The position numbers were made by a program, and so were the translations under genes. From the NCBI GenBank assembly GCA_905236615.1, contig CAJORC010000009.1, positions 1 to 17,042 of the forward strand: DNA of 17,042 nucleotides. Direction: 5' to 3'. Below are positions 4,165 through 16,756 of the stretch, piece after piece (position 1 is the first letter of the stretch; each line of letters opens with the position of its first letter). The notes beneath the pieces were generated by a model that was not told where the DNA came from, did not search any database, and saw only the letters and a list, made by a program, of their open reading frames with translations. This stretch comes from an uncultured Lachnospiraceae bacterium (GTDB lineage Bacteria > Bacillota > Clostridia > Lachnospirales > Lachnospiraceae).

Positions 4165-5565
4165 ATGCATTTTCCTAGAGTTATGATTGCTGCTCCGAGA
4201 AGCGGATCGGGCAAAACACTGATAACATGTCTTGTCCTCAAGTCTCTTATGCGTGAACAGCTTAAGGTATCAGCGTTTAAGTGCGGACCTGATTATATCG
4301 ACCCGATGTTTCACAAAAGGGTGATAGGTATTCCGTCAAAGAATCTGGATACGTTTTTTACAGATGTAAAGAAAACAAGAAAGCTCTTCATGGAGCTTGC
4401 GACTAAGACCGATATATCTGTTATCGAGGGTGCGATGGGACTTTATGACGGAATCGGAGGAACGAGCGAGAAAGCTTCTTCCTATGACGTTGCGAGAGCG
4501 ATACGCTGCCCGATAATTTTAGTCTGTGATGTAAAGGGCATGGGTGGAATGTCACTTACGGCACAGATCAGAGGATTTCTTGATTATGACAGGGATAAGC
4601 TTATTTCGGCTATCATATTGAACGGGATAAGCCCCGGAAACTACGAACACGTTGCAAAGCATATTGAAAAGGAACTCAGCATTCCCATCATAGGATATGT
4701 TCCTTACAATAAAGAACTGAGATTTGATTCAAGGCATTTGGGACTCATAATGCCGGAAGAGGTTACAGACCTGAATGTTACTCTGGATCTGGCTGCGGCA
4801 AGATTCAGACAGACCGTTGATTTCGTGAAGATCATGGAGATCGCATCAACGGCGGCTGATGTTGAATGGGAGAGCCTGAGACACAGGATTAGTCCTGAGA
4901 TGCCGGTTAGGATAGGAATTGCAGCAGATGAGGCATTTCGTTTTTACTATGAGGATAACCTTGAGATCTTGAGAGATTTCGGGGCAAATCTGGTTCCTTT
5001 TTCGCCGATCCATGACAAGAAGATACCGGACGGAGTTCAGGGACTCATATTCTATGGGGGATATCCGGAACTTTATGCAAAGGAACTGAGCGAGAACAAG
5101 GAGATGCTTAAATCAGTGGCGGATGCGATAAATTCCGGCATGCCGTCGATTGCAGAATGCGGTGGATTTATGTATCTGGGAGAGAGTATCGAGGCTCAGG
5201 ACAGAGTGACCTATCCGATGGTGGGCATTGTAAAAACAAAATTTTATAACAGCGGAAAACTAGTAAGATTCGGATATATGAGCGTTACCGAGAAGAGTAC
5301 TTCGTTCCTCGGCAACGGTAAGGCTATCAGGGGGCATGAATTCCATTACTATACCTGTAATGAGAACGGCTCTGACTGCATAGCGTATAAGCCGATAAGA
5401 GGCAAGACATGGGACTGCGTTTATGTTGGTGAGAACAGCTGGTGGGGATGGCCGCATCTTTATTATTCTTCATGTGCGACCTACGCCGAAAACTTCATAA
5501 GGAAATGCAGGCGTTATATGCCGGCGGATACTGTTCCTCATGAAAAATTCCAGCAGATTCTTTGA
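4165..5565 (+). CDS. cobB: Cobyrinate a,c-diamide synthase
   Basis: CobB/CbiA amidates the a and c side chains of (cobalt-)cobyrinate using ATP and glutamine. The N-terminal dethiobiotin-synthetase-like domain has the P-loop APRSGSGKT (residues 10-18) and the family signature 'FKCGPDYIDPMFH'. The C-terminal type I glutamine amidotransferase domain has the nucleophile in AECGGFMYL (Cys332) and the conserved GHEFHYY (His391 and His394). A GTG at 4153 is also in frame, but the ATG at 4165 is preferred: the G-run GGGGG at 4154-4158 sits at proper distance as its ribosome binding site, and the P-loop strand then starts at the usual distance. That gives 466 residues, normal for the family. The end overlaps the next gene by 26 nt. 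Confidence 0.95.
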   Translation: MHFPRVMIAAPRSGSGKTLITCLVLKSLMREQLKVSAFKCGPDYIDPMFHKRVIGIPSKNLDTFFTDVKKTRKLFMELATKTDISVIEGAMGLYDGIGGTSEKASSYDVARAIRCPIILVCDVKGMGGMSLTAQIRGFLDYDRDKLISAIILNGISPGNYEHVAKHIEKELSIPIIGYVPYNKELRFDSRHLGLIMPEEVTDLNVTLDLAAARFRQTVDFVKIMEIASTAADVEWESLRHRISPEMPVRIGIAADEAFRFYYEDNLEILRDFGANLVPFSPIHDKKIPDGVQGLIFYGGYPELYAKELSENKEMLKSVADAINSGMPSIAECGGFMYLGESIEAQDRVTYPMVGIVKTKFYNSGKLVRFGYMSVTEKSTSFLGNGKAIRGHEFHYYTCNENGSDCIAYKPIRGKTWDCVYVGENSWWGWPHLYYSSCATYAENFIRKCRRYMPADTVPHEKFQQIL

Positions 5566-9073: not shown

Positions 9074-10039
9074 ATGGGCGATTTAGGAAAAAAGAAAAAT
9101 AATATACTAAAAGCGGCAGCTTTCTTAAGCGTGCTGGCAATATTGATAATCGCCGCATCTTTGGCAGTAAAGCCTAAGTACGGCGAAGTTTATGATATAT
9201 CAAAGACTAACAGGAAACAGATTGCGGTCTCTGCCGAAAAAAAAGACAGCATAGATGTGTTTTTTGCCGGTGACAGTGTTGTCTACAGGTCGATCTCTCC
9301 GCTGCAGCTCTTTGCCGATCACGGCTTTACCTCGTATGATTTGAGCGATAGTGCTTTACGTCTCTGTGATGCGGTGTCAATGGTTGAGACGGCTTATGAG
9401 AAACATTCGGCAAAGGTGATCGTGCTTGAAACAGATGCGCTTTTTACTGATGCATCACCTCACAGGGATGTTTACGCGCATCCGGCAAATGCGCTTGAAG
9501 ACCTGCTTCCAATATTTCATTATCATGTTTTTTATAAAACATGGCTGCCTTCGGTTGCGGCGGAAAGCTCAACGGTTGATCTTCATAATCTCCTTAAGGG
9601 CTTTGAATATACGGACTCTGTAATAGCTTATGAAGGATCGGCCGATTACATGAAGGAAGGACCTTCAAGGGCAAGGATGAGTAAGGAATGCCTTGATTAC
9701 TTAAATGAGCTGCATTCTTTCGCAAAAGAAAAAGGCGCTGAGCTTTTACTTGTCAGCGTACCGAGACCACTGGGCTGGAATGATGCAAGGCATGATGCGG
9801 TAGCGGACTGGGCAGAGAAAAATTCGGTCTCATATACAGACCTTAATAAAGAGGATATCGGGATAGACTGGAAGACAGACACGATGGATGCCGGAGACCA
9901 TATGAGTTTCGAAGGCTCTAAAAAAGTAAGCAGTTATATCGGAAGATATCTTACTGAGAATTACAATTTGGAAGATCACAGAGATGACCCGGATTACGGA
10001 TCATGGGCTGAGAGTTATAGAGAGGCAGGGATATATTGA
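9074..10039 (+). CDS. Membrane-anchored SGNH-like protein (DltD-like role)
   Basis: A basic N-terminus (GKKKNN) is followed by one hydrophobic segment (about residues 12-32), so the rest is probably outside the membrane. The extracytoplasmic domain has SGNH-hydrolase features: block I 'FFAGDSV' with Ser68, and a C-terminal 'DAGDHMSFEG' with Asp272/Asp275 and His276, which recalls the D-x-x-H-x-G-x-x-G block of DltD. In Dlt systems the corresponding protein takes the acyl group delivered by the MBOAT partner and passes it to teichoic acid. At 321 residues it is shorter than DltD (about 390) and may be an AlgJ-like analogue rather than an orthologue. A TTG at 9065 is in frame, but the ATG at 9074 was chosen; it has only a weak GAAG upstream. 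Its TGA overlaps the next ATG. Confidence 0.72.
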   Translation: MGDLGKKKNNILKAAAFLSVLAILIIAASLAVKPKYGEVYDISKTNRKQIAVSAEKKDSIDVFFAGDSVVYRSISPLQLFADHGFTSYDLSDSALRLCDAVSMVETAYEKHSAKVIVLETDALFTDASPHRDVYAHPANALEDLLPIFHYHVFYKTWLPSVAAESSTVDLHNLLKGFEYTDSVIAYEGSADYMKEGPSRARMSKECLDYLNELHSFAKEKGAELLLVSVPRPLGWNDARHDAVADWAEKNSVSYTDLNKEDIGIDWKTDTMDAGDHMSFEGSKKVSSYIGRYLTENYNLEDHRDDPDYGSWAESYREAGIY

Positions 10040-11634
10040 TGAACACTGGTGAATTTATTAATGATCTAATTCTCTGGTGGGGAGATCTGTCGTATTCGGT
10101 ATGGATGTTTTTTGCACTCTTTTTACCCCTTACGGCTGTTATTTATCAGCTTACACCTGCGAAAAGCAGAAAGTTTGTCCTGCTCGGAGCAAGCTGGGTG
10201 TTTTTTGCATCTTTGAGCAAATGGCTTTTGATCGTAAATATTTTAGAGTCTGTTTTCGTATGGAAAATGGCACTGCAGATTGAAAAGATTTCTAAGGACA
10301 AGAGCATTAAAAGAAAGGAAAGGGCAGCAAAGAGGACGAGAACACTTGTCTGGGGAATTATAAGCCTTTTGCTCATTCTTGTGGGATTTAAGTATCTTGA
10401 CTTCCTTGGACTGAATCTGGTCAGGATATCACAGCTTTTCAGACATCCTGTCAACTGGAAGATGCTGAATCTGGCTGCACCTTTGGGAATTTCATATTAT
10501 ACTCTGATGGCAATATCTTATCTTACGGATGTTTCAAGAGAAGATATCAAGGCGGATAAAAGTCTTGCCAATGTTGCGCTCTACCTTTCATTCTTCCCGA
10601 AGATCGTGGAAGGTCCCATCACAAGATACGGAGAGGATTCAAAGGCACTTTTTGCCGGAAATCCCATCAATTACAACGATCTTGCACAGGGATATCAGAG
10701 GATAGCCTGGGGACTCTTTAAGAAGATAGTGATCGCGGATCAGCTTGCACCGTCCATACCGGCTCTTTTTGAAGGCACCTATACTGACGGCGGTGTGGCA
10801 CTTTATGCGGCATTTGCCTTTACCATTCAGGAATATATGGATTTTTCGGGATCCATAGACATCGTTATCGGAAGTGCAAGGATTTTCGGAGTAAGAATGG
10901 CGGAGAACTTCACGCAGCCTTTTTTTGCAAAGAATGCATCCGACTTCTGGCACAGATGGCATATTACTCTCGGTACTTTCTTCAGGGATTATATTTTTTA
11001 TCCGGTTTCGCTTGCAAAGCCTGTAATGAAATTTACGAAAAAGGTAAAGAATATAGCAGGACAGGGAGTTGCCCATTTTACGGCACCGACGATCGCTCTC
11101 TTTCTTGTATGGCTTTCTAACGGTATATGGCACGGTCCCAGATGGACATATATTTTCTACGGAATGTATTATTTTGTGCTGATATTTATAGAGAATATTC
11201 TGGAAGAGCCTTTTCTTAAATTTCTCTCAAAAATACATCTGAGTGAGGAATCGATACCTGTCAGGGTATTTCGTTTTGTGAAACTTTTCTTTATCATAAT
11301 AATCGGAGAGATGTTCTTCAGGGCGCAGACGATGGAAGTGGGTATCTCGATGTTTAAGAGCATATTCACCAACCTCAGATTCGATATGCTGCTTGCCAAC
11401 ATTGGAAACCTGAACATGGATTTCTATGCCTTTGTTTCGGTTTATGCAGGTCTTGCTGTAGTGATCGCGGTAAGTATCATGAAGGAGATCCGTTTCCCTA
11501 TAAGGGCGAAGCTGGAGAGCCTTCCGATAGCGGTAAGGTTTACATTCTGGTATGTCTGCATATTTGTTATAATAATTTTCGGTGCTTATGGTACGGGATA
11601 TTCTTCGGAGGATCTGATCTATGCACAGTTTTAA
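10039..11634 (+). CDS. MBOAT-family membrane O-acyltransferase (DltB-like)
   Basis: This is a 531-residue polytopic membrane protein of the MBOAT family (DltB/AlgI/PatA type) with about ten or more hydrophobic segments, for example near residues 17-38, 46-72 and 100-123. The conserved catalytic-region histidines are visible: 'FWHRWHITLGTFFRDYIFYPV' with His305 and His308, and 'LSNGIWHGPRWTYIFYG' with His365, the family's invariant histidine. In Dlt systems this protein moves the amino-acyl group from the carrier protein through the membrane. The ATG at 10039 overlaps the previous stop (TGATG); an adjacent in-frame TTG at 10036 is less likely. The 3' end overlaps the adenylation gene by 14 nt. 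The neighbours argue for DltB-like aminoacyl transfer rather than acetyl transfer as in alginate acetylation. Confidence 0.9.
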   Translation: MNTGEFINDLILWWGDLSYSVWMFFALFLPLTAVIYQLTPAKSRKFVLLGASWVFFASLSKWLLIVNILESVFVWKMALQIEKISKDKSIKRKERAAKRTRTLVWGIISLLLILVGFKYLDFLGLNLVRISQLFRHPVNWKMLNLAAPLGISYYTLMAISYLTDVSREDIKADKSLANVALYLSFFPKIVEGPITRYGEDSKALFAGNPINYNDLAQGYQRIAWGLFKKIVIADQLAPSIPALFEGTYTDGGVALYAAFAFTIQEYMDFSGSIDIVIGSARIFGVRMAENFTQPFFAKNASDFWHRWHITLGTFFRDYIFYPVSLAKPVMKFTKKVKNIAGQGVAHFTAPTIALFLVWLSNGIWHGPRWTYIFYGMYYFVLIFIENILEEPFLKFLSKIHLSEESIPVRVFRFVKLFFIIIIGEMFFRAQTMEVGISMFKSIFTNLRFDMLLANIGNLNMDFYAFVSVYAGLAVVIAVSIMKEIRFPIRAKLESLPIAVRFTFWYVCIFVIIIFGAYGTGYSSEDLIYAQF

Positions 11635-13141
11635 TAAAAACGTTCTGGTCTGGCTGGAAGAGTCAGCTTCAAACTATCCGGACAGAACGGTTTACGAAGA
11701 TGAGAATGAAAAAATCACTTTTGCCGAACTTGAAAATGAGGCTAAGCGTATAGGAACAGCAGTTATAAAAGCAGAACTTCCGGACAGTCCGATAGCGGTC
11801 ATGATGGGAAGAAGCGTCCATACCATAGCTGCATTTTTAGGCGTTGTCTATTCGGGAAGAGCATATGCACCCATAGAGGCTAAAGATCCTCTGAGCCGGA
11901 GAGAGAAGATACTTGCAAATCTTGAAAATCCGGCAGTTATAACGGATGAAGAAACCTGCGGAGAGCTGGGGAACGGCAGTGTAAACCTTAAAGCAGGGGA
12001 ACTCTTAAAATCGGAAATAGATGAAGGACTGCTGGAAAGGGTCAGAAATGAAATGACAGAAAACGACCCTTTATATATAATATATACATCAGGCTCCAGC
12101 GGTAATCCGAAGGGCGTCATTACGTCCCATCGTTCACTTATCTGTTATATAAATTCGTATAGGGATGTAATGGATATCAATGAGTCGGATGTGCTTGCTT
12201 CACAGTCCCAGCTTGACTATATTGCAGCGATAAGGGATATCTACCTCCCGCTGCTTACAGGCGCAAAGACATTTCTTTTGCCGAAGGAATATTTCATGCA
12301 GCCTGATGTACTTTTTGAAAGCATGAACAGGCATGGAGTAACGGCAGCGGGCTGGAGCAGTTCAGCGGTTACGGTTCTCACAAAGCTTGGTGCATTCAAG
12401 GATTGCGGTCTTCAGGGCTTCAGGAAACTCTGTTTTTCGGGTTCGGTAATGCCGGGAAAGGTGCTGGCTCTCTGGCAGGAGAATCTGCCTGAATGCAAAT
12501 TTGTAAATCAGTATGGTCCTACAGAGGCAACAGCTTCCTGTACATATTATGAAGTTGATCATAAGGTTACCGAGGATGAGGTTCTTCCGGTCGGCAGAGC
12601 TTATGACAATTACAGGGTATTTCTGCTGACTGAAGACGGAAAACCTGCAGCTGACGGCGAGATGGGTGAAATATGCGTGTCAGGTCCCTGCGTGGCTCTG
12701 GGATATTACAATGATAAAGAGCGGACAGAGGCGGCTTTTATGCAGAATCCGCTTAATAATGCTTATCGTGAGATAATCTATAAAACAGGTGATATCGGAA
12801 GATTCAGGGAAGACGGACTTCTGGAATTTCACGGTCGTTCCGACAGGCAGATAAAGCATATGGGACACCGTGTTGAACTTGATGAAATAGAAGCTGCGGC
12901 GATGGAGATCGAAGGAGTGAGCGAGTGCGCGGCTCTTTATGATCATGAAAAGGAAAACATATGGCTTTTATATACGGGTGATATTGCATCGAGAGAAATT
13001 TCACTGAAATTAAGGGAAATGATCCCGCTCTTTATGGTTCCCCGTAAATTAAAGCAGCTTGAAGAACTGGCAAAACTGCCTAACGGAAAAACGGATATTA
13101 AGCGTTTAGAGAAAGATACATTTGGAGGTAAAAAGAAATGA
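11621..13141 (+). CDS. Amino-acid adenylation enzyme, DltA-like (AMP-forming carrier-protein ligase)
   Basis: This is a 506-residue stand-alone adenylation domain of the ANL superfamily that activates an acid with ATP and loads it onto the following carrier protein. Core motifs are present: 'YTSGSSGNPKG' (Thr156-Gly165 region), 'YGPTEA' (298-303), 'YKTGDIGRF' with Asp391, and 'LPNGKTDIKRL' with Lys490, the catalytic A10 lysine. Asp199 in 'QLDYIAAIRDIY' sits where DltA (Asp197) and NRPS A domains hold the substrate amino group, so an alpha-amino acid is likely. In the pocket strand 'LCFSGSVMP', Ser273 occupies the place of the DltA cysteine (Cys269 in Bacillus) that favours D-Ala. The substrate may therefore differ. 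The ATG has GGAGG (11607-11611) upstream, overlaps the MBOAT gene by 14 nt, and its TGA overlaps the ACP ATG. Confidence 0.88.
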   Translation: MHSFNKNVLVWLEESASNYPDRTVYEDENEKITFAELENEAKRIGTAVIKAELPDSPIAVMMGRSVHTIAAFLGVVYSGRAYAPIEAKDPLSRREKILANLENPAVITDEETCGELGNGSVNLKAGELLKSEIDEGLLERVRNEMTENDPLYIIYTSGSSGNPKGVITSHRSLICYINSYRDVMDINESDVLASQSQLDYIAAIRDIYLPLLTGAKTFLLPKEYFMQPDVLFESMNRHGVTAAGWSSSAVTVLTKLGAFKDCGLQGFRKLCFSGSVMPGKVLALWQENLPECKFVNQYGPTEATASCTYYEVDHKVTEDEVLPVGRAYDNYRVFLLTEDGKPAADGEMGEICVSGPCVALGYYNDKERTEAAFMQNPLNNAYREIIYKTGDIGRFREDGLLEFHGRSDRQIKHMGHRVELDEIEAAAMEIEGVSECAALYDHEKENIWLLYTGDIASREISLKLREMIPLFMVPRKLKQLEELAKLPNGKTDIKRLEKDTFGGKKK

Positions 13142-13371
13142 GAGACAGAATTATTGAGATTTTAAGCGGTGTAAGAGCAGACGTTGATTTTGAAAAGGAA
13201 ACAGAACTCGTAAGCGGGAACATTCTTGAGTCATTTGATATTGTAGATATCGTAGCAGAACTTGACGATGAATTCGATATCGAGATCGGACCGAAAGAGC
13301 TCAAGGCAGAGAATTTTGACTCTGTAGAGGCTATTGAGGCTCTTGTAGAGCGTCTTATGGGAGATGAGTAA
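13138..13371 (+). CDS. Acyl/aminoacyl carrier protein (DltC-like)
   Basis: This is a 77-residue acidic four-helix carrier protein. The phosphopantetheine site is Ser32 in 'NILESFDIVDIVAELDDEFDIEI', with Glu-Ser-Phe in place of the usual Asp-Ser-Leu. The sequence after it matches the recognition helix of ACP/PCP proteins. The ATG overlaps the adenylation-gene stop (ATGA) and has a strong GGAGG (13123-13127) site. Its position directly after the adenylation enzyme and before a PLP decarboxylase suggests that it carries the activated amino acid for both decarboxylation and transfer; the decarboxylation part is inference. Confidence 0.92.
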   Translation: MRDRIIEILSGVRADVDFEKETELVSGNILESFDIVDIVAELDDEFDIEIGPKELKAENFDSVEAIEALVERLMGDE

Positions 13372-14503
13372 ATTGACTCCCGAATATGTTTTCAGCGCAG
13401 ACAGATTTGCGGAGAGGATAGGGCTTATATCAGAAGCCTTACCGGGCATACCGCTGGTATATTCGATGAAGGCAAATCCCTTTTTGCTGCATTGTCTGCC
13501 GGAAAAAATCGATATGGTGGAAGTATGTTCTCCCGGAGAACTTGCGATCTGCGAAAACTTGTCCGTACCGGGTGAAAAGATTCTTTATTCGGGCGTGGTT
13601 AAAGGTAGTGAGGACAGTCTCAGGGCGGTTAAGCTCGGTGCTAAATATCTTACCGCTGAAAGTAAGAATCAGTTTGAGATAGTCAAGAAGGCTGCAGAGG
13701 AAACCGGTATAAGGGCAGATATTCTTTTGCGCCTTTCTTCGGGAAACCAGTTCGGAATGAGCAGGGAAGACCTCTTGTCGATAATTGAGACAGAGAGGGA
13801 TAGTTCTTCTGTAAGGATTGCGGGTATCCATCTTTTTTCGGGTACGTCTAAACGCAAACTGAAGGCGATCGAAAAGGATTTGAACCTGCTTCGTGAAATC
13901 TTGTCGGAAGCAGAAGAGAAGTTCGCTTTTAAGGCGGATATCGTCGAGTACGGTCCGGGGCTTGGAGTAAATTATTTCGAAAAGACTACGGCAGAATCGG
14001 AAGAAGCTGAGAGGGCAGCTCTTGAAGAAGCTGCTGCTTATCTTTGTGAATTTGCCAAAGAATATCCCTTAAGTATTGAAATGGGCAGATTCATGGCGGC
14101 ACCCTGCGGTTATTACGAGACGAGAGTCGCTGATATAAAAACAACTGACGGAGTAAATTACTGCATGCTGGATGGCGGAATTCACCAGCTTAATTATTAC
14201 GGGCAGAACATGGCAATGAAGATACCCGTGATAGAACAGATGCCTGCGAGGGCTGAGTTTGAAAAAAAGACCTACTGTCTTTGCGGCAGTCTCTGCACGA
14301 CAGCAGATGTAGTTGTAAGAGAAGTCGAATTAAATGAGGTTCAGATCGGGGATGTCCTCAGATTTGAAAGAACCGGAGCATATTCCGTGACGGAGGCACC
14401 GGCACTTTTTCTTTCAAGAGCCCTTCCGGAAGTTTACATCGAAGCCGGAGGAGAGAAGAAGCTTGTAAGGGAGAGGATTCAGGCATTTGAAATAAATTCC
14501 TGA
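13364..14503 (+). CDS. Fold-type III PLP-dependent amino-acid decarboxylase (DapDC/BtrK-like)
   Basis: This 379-residue enzyme has an alanine-racemase-like barrel followed by a beta domain, as in diaminopimelate, ornithine and BtrK-type decarboxylases. Visible active-site elements are Lys36 in 'YSMKANP' (PLP Schiff base), His156 in 'GIHLFSG', the phosphate-binding 'YGPGLG' (196-201), Glu239 and Arg242 in 'EMGR', Cys311 in 'GSLCTTADVV', and Tyr340 in 'TGAYSV'. Classic LysA has C-E-S-x-D where this protein has C-T-T-A-D, so free diaminopimelate is not an obvious substrate. The gene overlaps the carrier-protein gene by 8 nt. An in-frame TTG at 13373 has a better-spaced GGGAG (13359-13363), so the true start may lie there. 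The substrate is unknown; a carrier-bound amino acid, as for BtrK, is the hypothesis. Confidence 0.83.
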   Translation: MSKLTPEYVFSADRFAERIGLISEALPGIPLVYSMKANPFLLHCLPEKIDMVEVCSPGELAICENLSVPGEKILYSGVVKGSEDSLRAVKLGAKYLTAESKNQFEIVKKAAEETGIRADILLRLSSGNQFGMSREDLLSIIETERDSSSVRIAGIHLFSGTSKRKLKAIEKDLNLLREILSEAEEKFAFKADIVEYGPGLGVNYFEKTTAESEEAERAALEEAAAYLCEFAKEYPLSIEMGRFMAAPCGYYETRVADIKTTDGVNYCMLDGGIHQLNYYGQNMAMKIPVIEQMPARAEFEKKTYCLCGSLCTTADVVVREVELNEVQIGDVLRFERTGAYSVTEAPALFLSRALPEVYIEAGGEKKLVRERIQAFEINS

Positions 14504-14517
14504 CAGGGAGAAAAAGT

Positions 14518-15843
14518 ATGAAAAAGCTTAAGACAGTGCTGGCAATTGGGCTCGTGATATTATTTGCTCTGCTTATAATATACGGGTTCAATTTGTTTTT
14601 GCATAATTCGGATAATAAAGACATAGCTGGTATTGCAGAACTGATGGAGACAGAAGGAAAGGAAGAAACGGAAGAAATGGCATCTGCTGAAATAAGCAGT
14701 GAAGAACAGGAAGAGATCATTGCTTCGGAAGAGGAATCTGCCGGGACTGAACCTGCTTCGGAGGAATTTGTCGAAACGGCTGTACTTTCGGATCAGAGCA
14801 GAGTTGAGGATCTTATAAAAGGACAGAGCCTTGAAAAGAAGATTTCCCAGCTGTTTATATGTACACCTGAGGCGCTTACCGGGGGAGAAAACGTGTTAGA
14901 AGCCGGTGAGACAGCAAGAAGAAGGTTTGAGGAATTTCCTGTCTCGGGAATCATTTATATGGGCAAGAACCTTAAGAATCCTTCGCAGACGAAAAAGATG
15001 CTCTCTGATATGCAGAGCTACAGTCAGTCATGTCTGGGCCTTCCACTTATACAATGCGTCGATGAAGAAGGCGGGACGGTTTCCCGTATAGCCTCCAATG
15101 CTTCTTATGGCGTGAAAGATGTGGGAAATATGTCGGATGTCGGTAAGAGCGGAGATCAGACTAAAGCATATGAAAGCGGAAAATATATCGGTTCTTATTT
15201 ATCTGAACTTGGCTTTAATCTGGATTTTGCACCTGTCGCTGATATACTGACCGTTTCCAACAATAAGCTTATGGAAAAGCGTTCTTTTGGATCAGATAAG
15301 AATCTGGTATCGCAGATGGCGGTGTCTTTGAGCAAAGGACTTGAATCTGAAGGTGTGCTGTCCTGCGCAAAGCATTTTCCGGGGCATGGAAATACAGTAG
15401 AAGACTCGCATAAGGGATTTGCAGTATCGAATAAGAGCATGGCAGAGCTTGAGGAAACGGAGCTTCAGCCTTTCAGGGCAGAGATGGACAGTGGGATATC
15501 AATGATAATGGTCGGCCACATCTCGCTGCCGGAAGTTACCGGAGATAAGACACCGTCTTCACTTTCACCGAAGATCGTAGAAGGTATCCTGAGAAAGAGA
15601 ATGGGATATAATGGTGTTGTTACCACAGATGCAATGAATATGGGTGCGGTGGTTAATCATTATTCTAACGGGGAAGCAGCGGTACTTGCGATTGAAGCCG
15701 GCTGTGATATAATACTTGCCCCTGATGACTTAAATTTATCGAGGAACGCATTGCTTCAGGCAGTGAAAAGCGGCCGTATATCAGAAGACAGGATCGATGA
15801 ATCTCTGAAGAGGATATACAGATTAAAGCTGTCGCTTAAATAA
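14518..15843 (+). CDS. Membrane-anchored glycoside hydrolase family 3 protein (NagZ-like)
   Basis: The protein has 441 residues. A short basic start and hydrophobic segment (about residues 7-28) anchor it, followed by a Glu/Ser-rich low-complexity linker (about 45-85) and a GH3 N-terminal barrel domain. The NagZ signature KHFPGHGNTVEDSH begins at Lys285 and supplies the Asp296-His298 acid/base pair. The nucleophile is Asp371 in 'VTTDAMNMGAV'. It probably removes N-acetylglucosamine from peptidoglycan fragments or another envelope glycan outside the cell. The ATG has GGGAG (14506-14510) seven bases upstream and lies 14 bases after the decarboxylase. Presence in the Dlt-like operon suggests joint action on the cell wall. 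There is no C-terminal GH3 domain, as in single-domain NagZ. Confidence 0.9.
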   Translation: MKKLKTVLAIGLVILFALLIIYGFNLFLHNSDNKDIAGIAELMETEGKEETEEMASAEISSEEQEEIIASEEESAGTEPASEEFVETAVLSDQSRVEDLIKGQSLEKKISQLFICTPEALTGGENVLEAGETARRRFEEFPVSGIIYMGKNLKNPSQTKKMLSDMQSYSQSCLGLPLIQCVDEEGGTVSRIASNASYGVKDVGNMSDVGKSGDQTKAYESGKYIGSYLSELGFNLDFAPVADILTVSNNKLMEKRSFGSDKNLVSQMAVSLSKGLESEGVLSCAKHFPGHGNTVEDSHKGFAVSNKSMAELEETELQPFRAEMDSGISMIMVGHISLPEVTGDKTPSSLSPKIVEGILRKRMGYNGVVTTDAMNMGAVVNHYSNGEAAVLAIEAGCDIILAPDDLNLSRNALLQAVKSGRISEDRIDESLKRIYRLKLSLK

Positions 15844-15868
15844 AGTATCTTTCTGAATGAGGTAGAAG

Positions 15869-16756
15869 ATTATTTTATCATTATCGGATTACTTAAAAAA
15901 TAAATACGGGACTAAGGTTTATAAGCTGTCCCTGACAAGCGGGGCTACCTGTCCTAACAGGGACGGAACTGTATCGACCGGAGGATGCATTTTCTGCTCG
16001 GAGGGAGGTTCAGGAGATTTTGCTGCGAAAGCATCAACTATCGAAGAACAGATCATCGAGGCAAAAAGAAAAGTAGACTCGAAGTTTTCGTCAAAAATCC
16101 CGGCTGAAGAGAGAAAGTACATTGCATATTTTCAGTCCTTTACCAATACTTACGGAAATCAGGAATATCTGAAAAAAATCTTTGCGGAAGTTTTATCATA
16201 TCCTGAGATCGTCGGTTTGTCAGTCGGGACACGTCCGGACTGCCTGAAAGACGAAATGATAGAATATCTGTCAGAGTTAAACAGGGAAAAGGAAGTCTGG
16301 GTAGAACTGGGGCTTCAGACAATTCATGAGCGGACAGCCGAATATATCAACAGAGGCTATCCGCTTACTGTTTTTGATGATGCTTATAAACGATTAACGG
16401 ACGTGGGATTAAAGGTGGTCGTGCATTTGATCTTAGGTCTGCCGGGAGAAAGTGAAGAAGATATTTTTGAGAGTGTAAGATACCTTTCAGGTCTGAATCC
16501 GGTTCTTTTCGGAGTCAAGCTGCAGCTTCTGCATATACTTAAGGGTACGGCACTTGCTGAAATTTATGATAAAGAGCCTTTTCATGTTTATAGTCTGGAA
16601 GAGTATTGTACACTCGTTGCGAATTGCTTAAAATTGCTTCCTGAAGAGACAGTCATTCACAGGCTTACAGGTGACGGTCCCAAAAGACTTCTTATCGAAC
16701 CTCAATGGAGCGCAAACAAAAAGCTTGTTATGAATACAATGAGAAAATATATCTGA
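15869..16756 (+). CDS. TIGR01212-type radical SAM protein (YtqA-like), unusual start
   Basis: This is a radical SAM enzyme of the Elp3/MiaB-like type, family TIGR01212 (YtqA-like). Its function is unknown; a role in RNA or other modification is only guessed. The cluster cysteines are Cys28, Cys40 and Cys43 in 'TCPNRDGTVSTGGCIFC', followed by 'YFQSFTNTY', 'GLSVGTRPDC' and 'LGLQTIHERTAEYINRGY', all typical. From 15869 the length is 295 residues, near the family size. No ATG, GTG or TTG lies in frame between the stop TAG at 15863 and the conserved N-terminus. The best placed codon is ATT at 15869 (or 15872), 5-8 bases after GAGGT (15859-15863). An in-frame ATG at 15857 is followed after one codon by that TAG. 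The start is therefore uncertain: AUU initiation, a mutation or a sequencing error are possible. It lies 25 bases after the GH3 gene. Confidence 0.82.
   Translation: MILSLSDYLKNKYGTKVYKLSLTSGATCPNRDGTVSTGGCIFCSEGGSGDFAAKASTIEEQIIEAKRKVDSKFSSKIPAEERKYIAYFQSFTNTYGNQEYLKKIFAEVLSYPEIVGLSVGTRPDCLKDEMIEYLSELNREKEVWVELGLQTIHERTAEYINRGYPLTVFDDAYKRLTDVGLKVVVHLILGLPGESEEDIFESVRYLSGLNPVLFGVKLQLLHILKGTALAEIYDKEPFHVYSLEEYCTLVANCLKLLPEETVIHRLTGDGPKRLLIEPQWSANKKLVMNTMRKYI

Follow-up and report, generated by a model that had tools for sequence, protein, structure and literature searches.

The window analysed here is the whole of a 17,042-nt stretch of DNA (contig CAJORC010000009.1 of GenBank assembly GCA_905236615.1) from an uncultured Lachnospiraceae bacterium, whose draft genome of 2.47 Mb is in 447 contigs and is 76% complete. 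Between 9074 and 14503 in the window, the open reading frame (ORF) listing has five genes that lie on the same (+) strand and overlap end to end. They encode an SGNH protein, an MBOAT acyltransferase, an amino-acid adenylation enzyme and a carrier protein – roles like those of DltD, DltB, DltA and DltC – together with a pyridoxal 5'-phosphate (PLP) decarboxylase of fold type III. These are the gene calls of an earlier note on this DNA, and all five stand, with their coordinates and strand. The features are:

9074–10039, + strand: SGNH protein (DltD/PatB-like), the predicted final transferase (ORF; homologue alignment; structural model with Foldseek and VIA matches)
10036–11634, + strand: MBOAT acyltransferase, DltB-like (PF03062, E 3.8e-10; DltB structure 8jem, E 1.6e-21)
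11614–11631, + strand: acyl-shuttle motif LIYAQF at the C-terminus of the MBOAT (Tyr529 codon, 11620–11622)
11621–13141, + strand: stand-alone amino-acid adenylation enzyme, DltA-like (TIGR01733, above cut-off)
12221–12235, + strand: adenylation codons Ile201 to Arg205, equivalent to PheA positions 235–239 (alignment to LgrA)
13138–13371, + strand: aminoacyl carrier protein (weak NCBIfam acyl carrier protein (ACP) matches; predicted 4'-phosphopantetheine site Ser32, codon 13231–13233)
13364–14503, + strand: fold-type III PLP decarboxylase (PF02784, PF00278; Lys36 for PLP; Cys311-Thr312 loop)
13364–13371, + strand: 8 nt shared by the carrier and decarboxylase genes (ORF coordinates)

Consecutive genes overlap by 4, 14, 4 and 8 nt, counted from the SGNH gene through to the decarboxylase gene, and since neighbouring genes overlap, translation of the five is probably coupled. 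The carrier and decarboxylase genes, whose overlap the earlier note also reported, share the 8 nt listed above; ORF coordinates give an identical overlap in three other loci (7629–7636 in L082, 917–924 in L031 and 5272–5279 in L097).

A scan of genome contigs with the window decarboxylase yielded 55 decarboxylase loci, 36 of them well flanked, with at least 5 kb on either side of the decarboxylase gene. The earlier note had named a lack of conservation of the gene pair as grounds for abandoning its reading. This did not occur: adenylation, carrier and decarboxylase genes lie together within 5 kb in 36 of the 36 well-flanked loci, with an MBOAT gene as well in 19. When contig-cut loci are included, 52 of the 55 have the adenylation gene within this distance, 52 the carrier gene, 50 both, and 29 the MBOAT gene. 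Gene order varies. Seventeen loci have the order adenylation-carrier-decarboxylase-MBOAT-SGNH, 16 have adenylation-decarboxylase-carrier, three have SGNH-MBOAT-adenylation-carrier-decarboxylase, and other orders are found in the remainder.

The gene set spans two bacterial families, with members in Lachnospiraceae and in Ruminococcus (Ruminococcus albus 8, for example), and many of the named relatives come from the rumen or gut. The closest locus, L082, is from a Lachnospiraceae genome of a rumen co-assembly and encodes a decarboxylase 78% identical to that of the window. Of the 48 genomes of the genus, 41 have a strong decarboxylase match (E <1e-40), as do 7 of 25 genomes from other genera of the family; none of 44 genomes from other families of the order has one. 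The presence of the decarboxylase in Ruminococcus, which by name belongs to the Oscillospiraceae, suggests horizontal spread.

The decarboxylase matches the Pfam domains PF02784 and PF00278 at 63.9 and 49.3 bits. Lys36, Cys311 and Thr312 are each kept in all 55 aligned family members, and the same Cys-Thr loop occurs in BtrK, SbnH, a Streptomyces VinO-type enzyme (L117, encoded beside a glutamate mutase) and two exosortase-A (XrtA) enzymes. Passages of PMC7857480 describe the loop cysteine as catalytic in decarboxylases of this fold, BtrK as decarboxylating BtrI-S-glutamate to give a carrier-bound gamma-aminobutyryl (GABA) group, and SbnH as acting on a citryl conjugate. For VinO, thioester formation must precede decarboxylation, and the enzyme acts on the carrier-bound residue (passages of PMC11284099). 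Both marks of the carrier-acting BtrK/VinO-type fold-III decarboxylases, the Cys-Thr loop and the PLP lysine, are present in the window enzyme. BtrK is its best PDB sequence match (E 1.3e-27) and the top Foldseek match of its AlphaFold model (mean predicted local distance difference test score (pLDDT) 88); VIA-align scores the model alike against BtrK and LysA, and fold comparison does not separate the two.

Among NCBIfam families the best match is the LysA family TIGR01048 (E 7.5e-47), but the score of 159.8 bits does not reach the cut-off of 297.9. All 55 family members have Thr in place of the Glu of the LysA C-E-x-x-D substrate loop, and the loop is Cys-Glu in 12 of the 12 LysA enzymes of the genus that were examined. 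The family forms a single clade in the tree (support 100/100), outside LysA (99/95), and the branch placing it nearer LysA or nearer the BtrK/VinO group has support of 59/3. The phylogeny proposed in the earlier note as a check thus excludes the decarboxylase from LysA and does not choose between these two as its nearer relatives. A separate LysA-like gene (at least 218 bits) is present in 44 of the 48 genomes of the genus, above the family cut-off in 16; the other 28 score below it, but the seven of these that were examined show the Glu loop, and on that ground all 28 were counted as LysA. Among the 48, no LysA-like match was found in G000, G010 or G038, and G022 has a partial match of 137 bits.

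As a neighbourhood control, 12 LysA loci of 9.5–17 kb, some with short flanks on one side, were searched for adenylation, carrier, MBOAT, SGNH and family-decarboxylase genes, and none of the 12 has any. This control is weak and is not leaned on, since the loci were picked away from cassettes and eight genomes of the genus (G004, G006, G016, G019, G026, G028, G029 and G041) have, by coordinates, a true LysA within about 4 kb of a cassette. LysA lies ca. 3–4 kb from the cassette in L033 (9204–12240, with a phosphohexomutase gene between) and in L103. Several relatives of the window decarboxylase, one of them from [Eubacterium] rectale, carry the database names diaminopimelate decarboxylase or alanine racemase, and metabolic reconstructions based on these names would go astray. 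A Geobacillus plasmid gene annotated as a diaminopimelate decarboxylase (L121, 3947–5215) has a Cys-Thr loop, with queA and thymidylate synthase genes close by, and is probably not LysA. In three loci – L078 (7953–11225), L079 and L081 – the decarboxylase frame continues into a tail of ca. 700 residues, which in L078 has Rib/Ig-like and transglutaminase domains; a similar transglutaminase-like protein is free-standing beside a decarboxylase-free cassette (L190, 4605–5879).

The adenylation enzyme matches PF00501 (AMP-binding, E 3.8e-62) and scores 329.4 bits against the TIGR01733 (AA-adenyl-dom) cut-off of 317.4; the next best family, the DltA equivalog TIGR01734, gives 272.7 bits, about half of its cut-off of 559.85. 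In ordinary adenylation domains, the Asp at position 235 holds the alpha-amino group. In an ungapped HMMER alignment to LgrA, Ile201 of the window enzyme falls under this aspartate (of the SFD motif) and Arg205 falls at position 239; the pocket differs from that of DltA. We read the Ile235/Arg239 pocket as one that would no longer hold an alpha-amine beside the activated carboxyl and could hold a distal carboxylate, which would fit a glutamate loaded by its gamma-carboxyl. The likeness of Arg239 to side-chain-activating domains is our assumption; specificity strings for ACV synthetase and two iso-peptide domains were sought and were not found. ACV synthetase adenylates a delta-carboxyl, according to a passage of PMC7147772.

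Among 49 adenylation enzymes that adjoin decarboxylases, 22 have the Ile235/Arg239 pocket (IARSCSQASK) and 27 have Asp/Lys. A basic residue at position 239, present in 49 of these 49, was considered as a marker of decarboxylase coupling and was discarded: this set had been chosen by its decarboxylases, and Lys239 is common without a decarboxylase in a wider survey. That survey covered 89 adenylation loci in 62 genomes, made up of matches (E ≤1e-70) in 117 related genomes to an adenylation enzyme whose cassette has no decarboxylase, together with previously found loci; fragments in L107 (two), L195 and L255 were dropped as too short or weak. Since Asp/Lys pockets are frequently without a decarboxylase, Arg or Lys at 239 alone proves nothing, and only Ile235/Arg239 tracks the decarboxylase. 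A decarboxylase lies within 6 kb in 24 of the 26 loci with this pocket, the other two being cut off by the end of the contig with flanks of 0 and 205 bases, and in 11 of the 63 loci with other pockets (Fisher p 2.9e-11, common descent ignored). Twenty-two loci with a DVKS[ML]SLCN pocket have no nearby decarboxylase; 15 of these are in genomes of the genus that have a strong decarboxylase match elsewhere, five in genomes of the genus that lack one, and two outside the genus.

An MBOAT gene lies within 6 kb in 65 of the 89 surveyed loci, and a decarboxylase gene does too in 30 of those. The other 35, without a decarboxylase in that distance, have 15 different pocket codes. Dlt-like cassettes are thus common in these bacteria, their adenylation pockets are diverse, and the decarboxylase is a feature of some branches. 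The coupling of a decarboxylase to a Dlt-like cassette, as the earlier note described it, is then frequent but not universal. Two of the decarboxylase-free adenylation-carrier-MBOAT-SGNH cassettes (L147, 4878–10000, and L151, 3487–7960) have the pocket DAISIGIGIK, which by specificity rules is presumably an ordinary alpha-amino-acid pocket; these are useful as natural controls.

The carrier protein has only weak NCBIfam ACP matches (best E 1e-06) and scores 27.9 bits against the cut-off of 68 for the DltC equivalog NF003464. Its Ser32 is kept in 53 of 53 aligned carriers. Pfam gave no match for the window carrier, the window SGNH protein, c28 of L066 or c5 of L056.

In the export half of the cassette, the MBOAT scores 139 bits against the cut-off of 375 for the DltB equivalog TIGR04091. 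Tyr529, Phe532, His309 and His366 are each present in all 31 aligned MBOATs of decarboxylase loci (one more MBOAT piece, in L048, is contig-cut and is outside the 31). Of 55 MBOATs from the wider genome set, 51 strictly match [FLMI]xYxxF at the C-terminus, three nearly match it, and one, at a contig end, does not. In the text of PMC12148441 that bears on it, the acyl-shuttle motif FXYXXF sits on the DltX microprotein in systems with a carrier-protein donor and on the MBOAT in those that use acyl-CoA; the window system joins the carrier-protein donor with the MBOAT-fused motif, which are kept apart there. Because the MBOAT terminates in the shuttle motif LIYAQF, the role of DltX appears to be built into it. 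No other + strand ORF of at least 70 amino acids lies between the cassette genes; the search for a separate DltX microprotein did not extend to shorter ORFs or to other parts of the genome.

The SGNH protein has an N-terminal helix (residues 2–31), Ser68 in a GDS motif, Asp269 and His276. Across 14 aligned homologues Asp269 and His276 are invariant and Ser68 is nearly so (Cys in L078), and a homologue matches Lipase_GDSL_2 at E 4.5e-6, below the family cut-off. The AlphaFold model (mean pLDDT 68.8, with a poor middle) matches SGNH/GDSL structures, including PatB and DltD, by Foldseek and VIA. The marks of MBOAT-SGNH acylation pairs – a partner of SGNH-type fold, a C-terminal shuttle motif and the conserved MBOAT His – are all present, in sequence or model. 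In L082 a short remnant (4225–4330), between the RACo and MBOAT genes, occupies the place of the window SGNH gene; its ends resemble the start and the end of that gene, and an assembly error is possible. The genome that matches L082 (G038) has a related SGNH gene elsewhere (C143, 2806–3771, 44%).

From the observed gene content, overlaps, motif conservation and exclusion from LysA, we infer with moderate confidence a Dlt-like envelope acylation system in which the decarboxylase would act on a carrier-bound residue and the product would be exported. The adenylation enzyme would activate an acidic amino acid, most likely glutamate and otherwise aspartate, at its side-chain carboxyl (gamma or beta, respectively) and load it onto the carrier, leaving the alpha-amino and alpha-carboxyl groups free. 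The decarboxylase would then strip the alpha-carboxyl from the tethered residue to give a GABA- or beta-alanyl-carrier. The MBOAT would hand the omega-aminoacyl group to Tyr529 in its own C-terminal LIYAQF tail, and the SGNH protein would take the group from the tyrosine and esterify a surface polymer. The earlier note had proposed the same course of loading, decarboxylation and export; the core of that reading has good comparative support, from the conserved gene pair, the exclusion from LysA and the Cys-Thr loop, while the substrate, the order of steps and the acceptor are as conjectural as they were. We rank GABA first as the product, on the evidence of the pocket, and beta-alanine second.

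Parts of this scheme are found in described systems. In the Dlt pathway there are likewise adenylation, carrier, MBOAT and SGNH roles, a carrier-bound aminoacyl thioester as donor and an acyl-tyrosine shuttle (passages of PMC12148441). Unlike it, the window operon includes a decarboxylase, has the shuttle motif fused to the MBOAT rather than in DltX microprotein form, falls short of the DltA, DltB and DltC equivalog cut-offs and lacks Asp235 in its adenylation pocket. PatA/PatB peptidoglycan O-acetylation also pairs an MBOAT that has a C-terminal FXYXXF shuttle with an SGNH partner (same source), but with an acyl-CoA donor and no carrier protein, whereas the window combines a carrier protein with the fused motif.

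The closest described trio to the adenylation enzyme, carrier and decarboxylase is VinN/VinL/VinO of vicenistatin, along with the proposed BolO/BolC/BolN of bolagladin: each has a stand-alone adenylation enzyme, an ACP and a PLP decarboxylase, and the side-chain carboxyl is loaded and the residue then decarboxylated on the carrier (passages of PMC11284099 and PMC7756342). Those systems feed polyketide or peptide synthesis, whereas the window trio is partnered with an MBOAT-SGNH export pair; the VinN-type enzyme of L117 keeps Asp235 and Arg331, where the window enzyme has Ile235 and Arg239. The butirosin pair BtrI/BtrK, offered in the earlier note as an analogue, remains apt for the decarboxylase, for which BtrK is the closest PDB match with a shared Cys-Thr loop and a glutamyl-carrier converted to a GABA-carrier, but it gives way to the Vin/Bol trio as the nearest described set. 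Butirosin synthesis uses a different kind of loading enzyme and a protecting gamma-glutamyl step, and no gamma-glutamyl protecting gene is apparent among the window genes; the absence of any evident protection favours beta-alanine. The exosortase-A pair TIGR03098/TIGR03099 is alike in that an adenylation enzyme adjoins a decarboxylase in surface-polysaccharide loci (L120 has a carrier nearby), but the window scores far below both cut-offs (200.7 and 156.2 bits against 592.35 and 478.45), and the two ligases examined keep Asp235 and Arg331. A literature search found no paper on an MBOAT or Dlt-like operon with a decarboxylase; most subscription papers lie outside its coverage.

Three points tell against reading too much into on-carrier decarboxylation and export. 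The 35 of 65 MBOAT-linked loci without a decarboxylase are one. In at least two genomes, G013 and G030, the decarboxylase has no adjoining partner genes, with related adenylation genes encoded elsewhere in both. The link between pocket and decarboxylase may also be a single inherited event.

It is also conceivable, if unlikely, that free aspartate or glutamate is decarboxylated first and the finished omega-amino acid is then loaded, with the same export. The gene neighbourhood gives no order of steps, and the loss of Asp235 would also suit a substrate without an alpha-amino group; Arg239, by our assumed analogy, suggests instead that the substrate has a second carboxylate at loading. The Cys-Thr loop matches enzymes that act on conjugates, and the nearest described trio decarboxylates after loading (PMC11284099) and a bolN mutant is not rescued by feeding beta-alanine (PMC7756342).

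Rather improbable is an exported acyl group that is not decarboxylated at all, the decarboxylase product serving some other pathway, nearby or in trans, such as amino-sugar acylation. The 35 decarboxylase-free loci are consistent with this, as are other Lachnospiraceae in which the trio sits in glycan clusters without an MBOAT; the overlap of all five window genes and the occurrence of the window-type pocket with a decarboxylase in 24 of 26 loci argue against it. Of the 20 Asp/Lys loci without an MBOAT, 19 have at least one gene of the glycan-cluster families counted (aminotransferase, epimerase, polymerase, hexapeptide transferase, glycosyltransferase and similar), an indication that amino sugars, too, can receive the same acyl group.

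A fold-III racemase or epimerase that supplies a D-amino acid for a D-alanine-like ester is very unlikely: the name alanine racemase in several source records and an Ala_racemase_N match barely over its cut-off (24.8 against 24.1 bits) favour it, but both decarboxylase domains outscore that match and the decarboxylase loop Cys is kept in 55 of 55 (the trees, which contained no racemase, do not bear on this). A LysA-like diaminopimelate or lysine decarboxylase in the operon by chance, to which the TIGR01048 match, the tied fold, the lack of another LysA match in the window's own 76%-complete genome and the eight genomes with a real LysA near the cassette lend some colour, is just as improbable and was rejected on score, loop residue, tree and separate LysA-like genes, which those eight genomes also have.

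If the carrier-bound residue is decarboxylated and exported as proposed, the operon predicts a surface group different from D-alanine, one made on the carrier and bearing its amine at the distal end. In the textbook account, Gram-positive bacteria give their surface a positive charge by D-alanylation, and an omega-aminoacyl ester is probably more stable than an alpha-aminoacyl ester. None of the 48 genomes of the genus has a match over the TIGR04091 (DltB) cut-off, and for this reason these bacteria may adjust the charge of their envelope through such cassettes. More tentatively, rumen and gut Clostridia might decorate an envelope polymer with carrier-made GABA or beta-alanine esters exported by a shuttle-tyrosine MBOAT; systems of the window type would then form a single branch within a larger Dlt-like set in Lachnospiraceae and relatives, in which different pockets lead to different surface aminoacyl groups.

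MBOAT-free adenylation-decarboxylase-carrier trios are found in capsule-type clusters (L054–L056, L058–L062, L064, L065, L067, L068, L073, L075, L076 and L084). Several of these clusters have a DegT aminotransferase, a Gfo/Idh dehydrogenase, a hexapeptide transferase and a UDP-N-acetylglucosamine 2-epimerase, a set that we take to resemble a 2,3-diamino sugar pathway, and omega-aminoacylation of an amino sugar is possible there. In L072 (2693–11445) the trio lies near a NeuB-family synthase, a DegT-cluster protein, an Antibiotic_NAT-family protein and a DUF4910 protein, and acylation of a nonulosonic acid is possible.

Downstream of the cassette, 14 bases past the decarboxylase gene, is a gene resembling glycoside hydrolase family 3 (GH3) beta-N-acetylhexosaminidases (14518–15843) with an N-terminal hydrophobic stretch; it is probably outside the cassette, because it is not beside the cassette in G033 (L097). 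A MnmL/YtqA-type radical SAM frame follows (15866–16756). The frame stays open as far back as about 15866 but has no common start codon at that upstream end; its first ATG, GTG or TTG is the TTG at 16217. Upstream, between 335 and 9046, are genes that by eye only resemble those of cobalamin (corrin ring) synthesis, followed by MecA-like and RACo-like genes. MecA, a gene of 210 amino acids and RACo also adjoin the cassette in L082 and L097.

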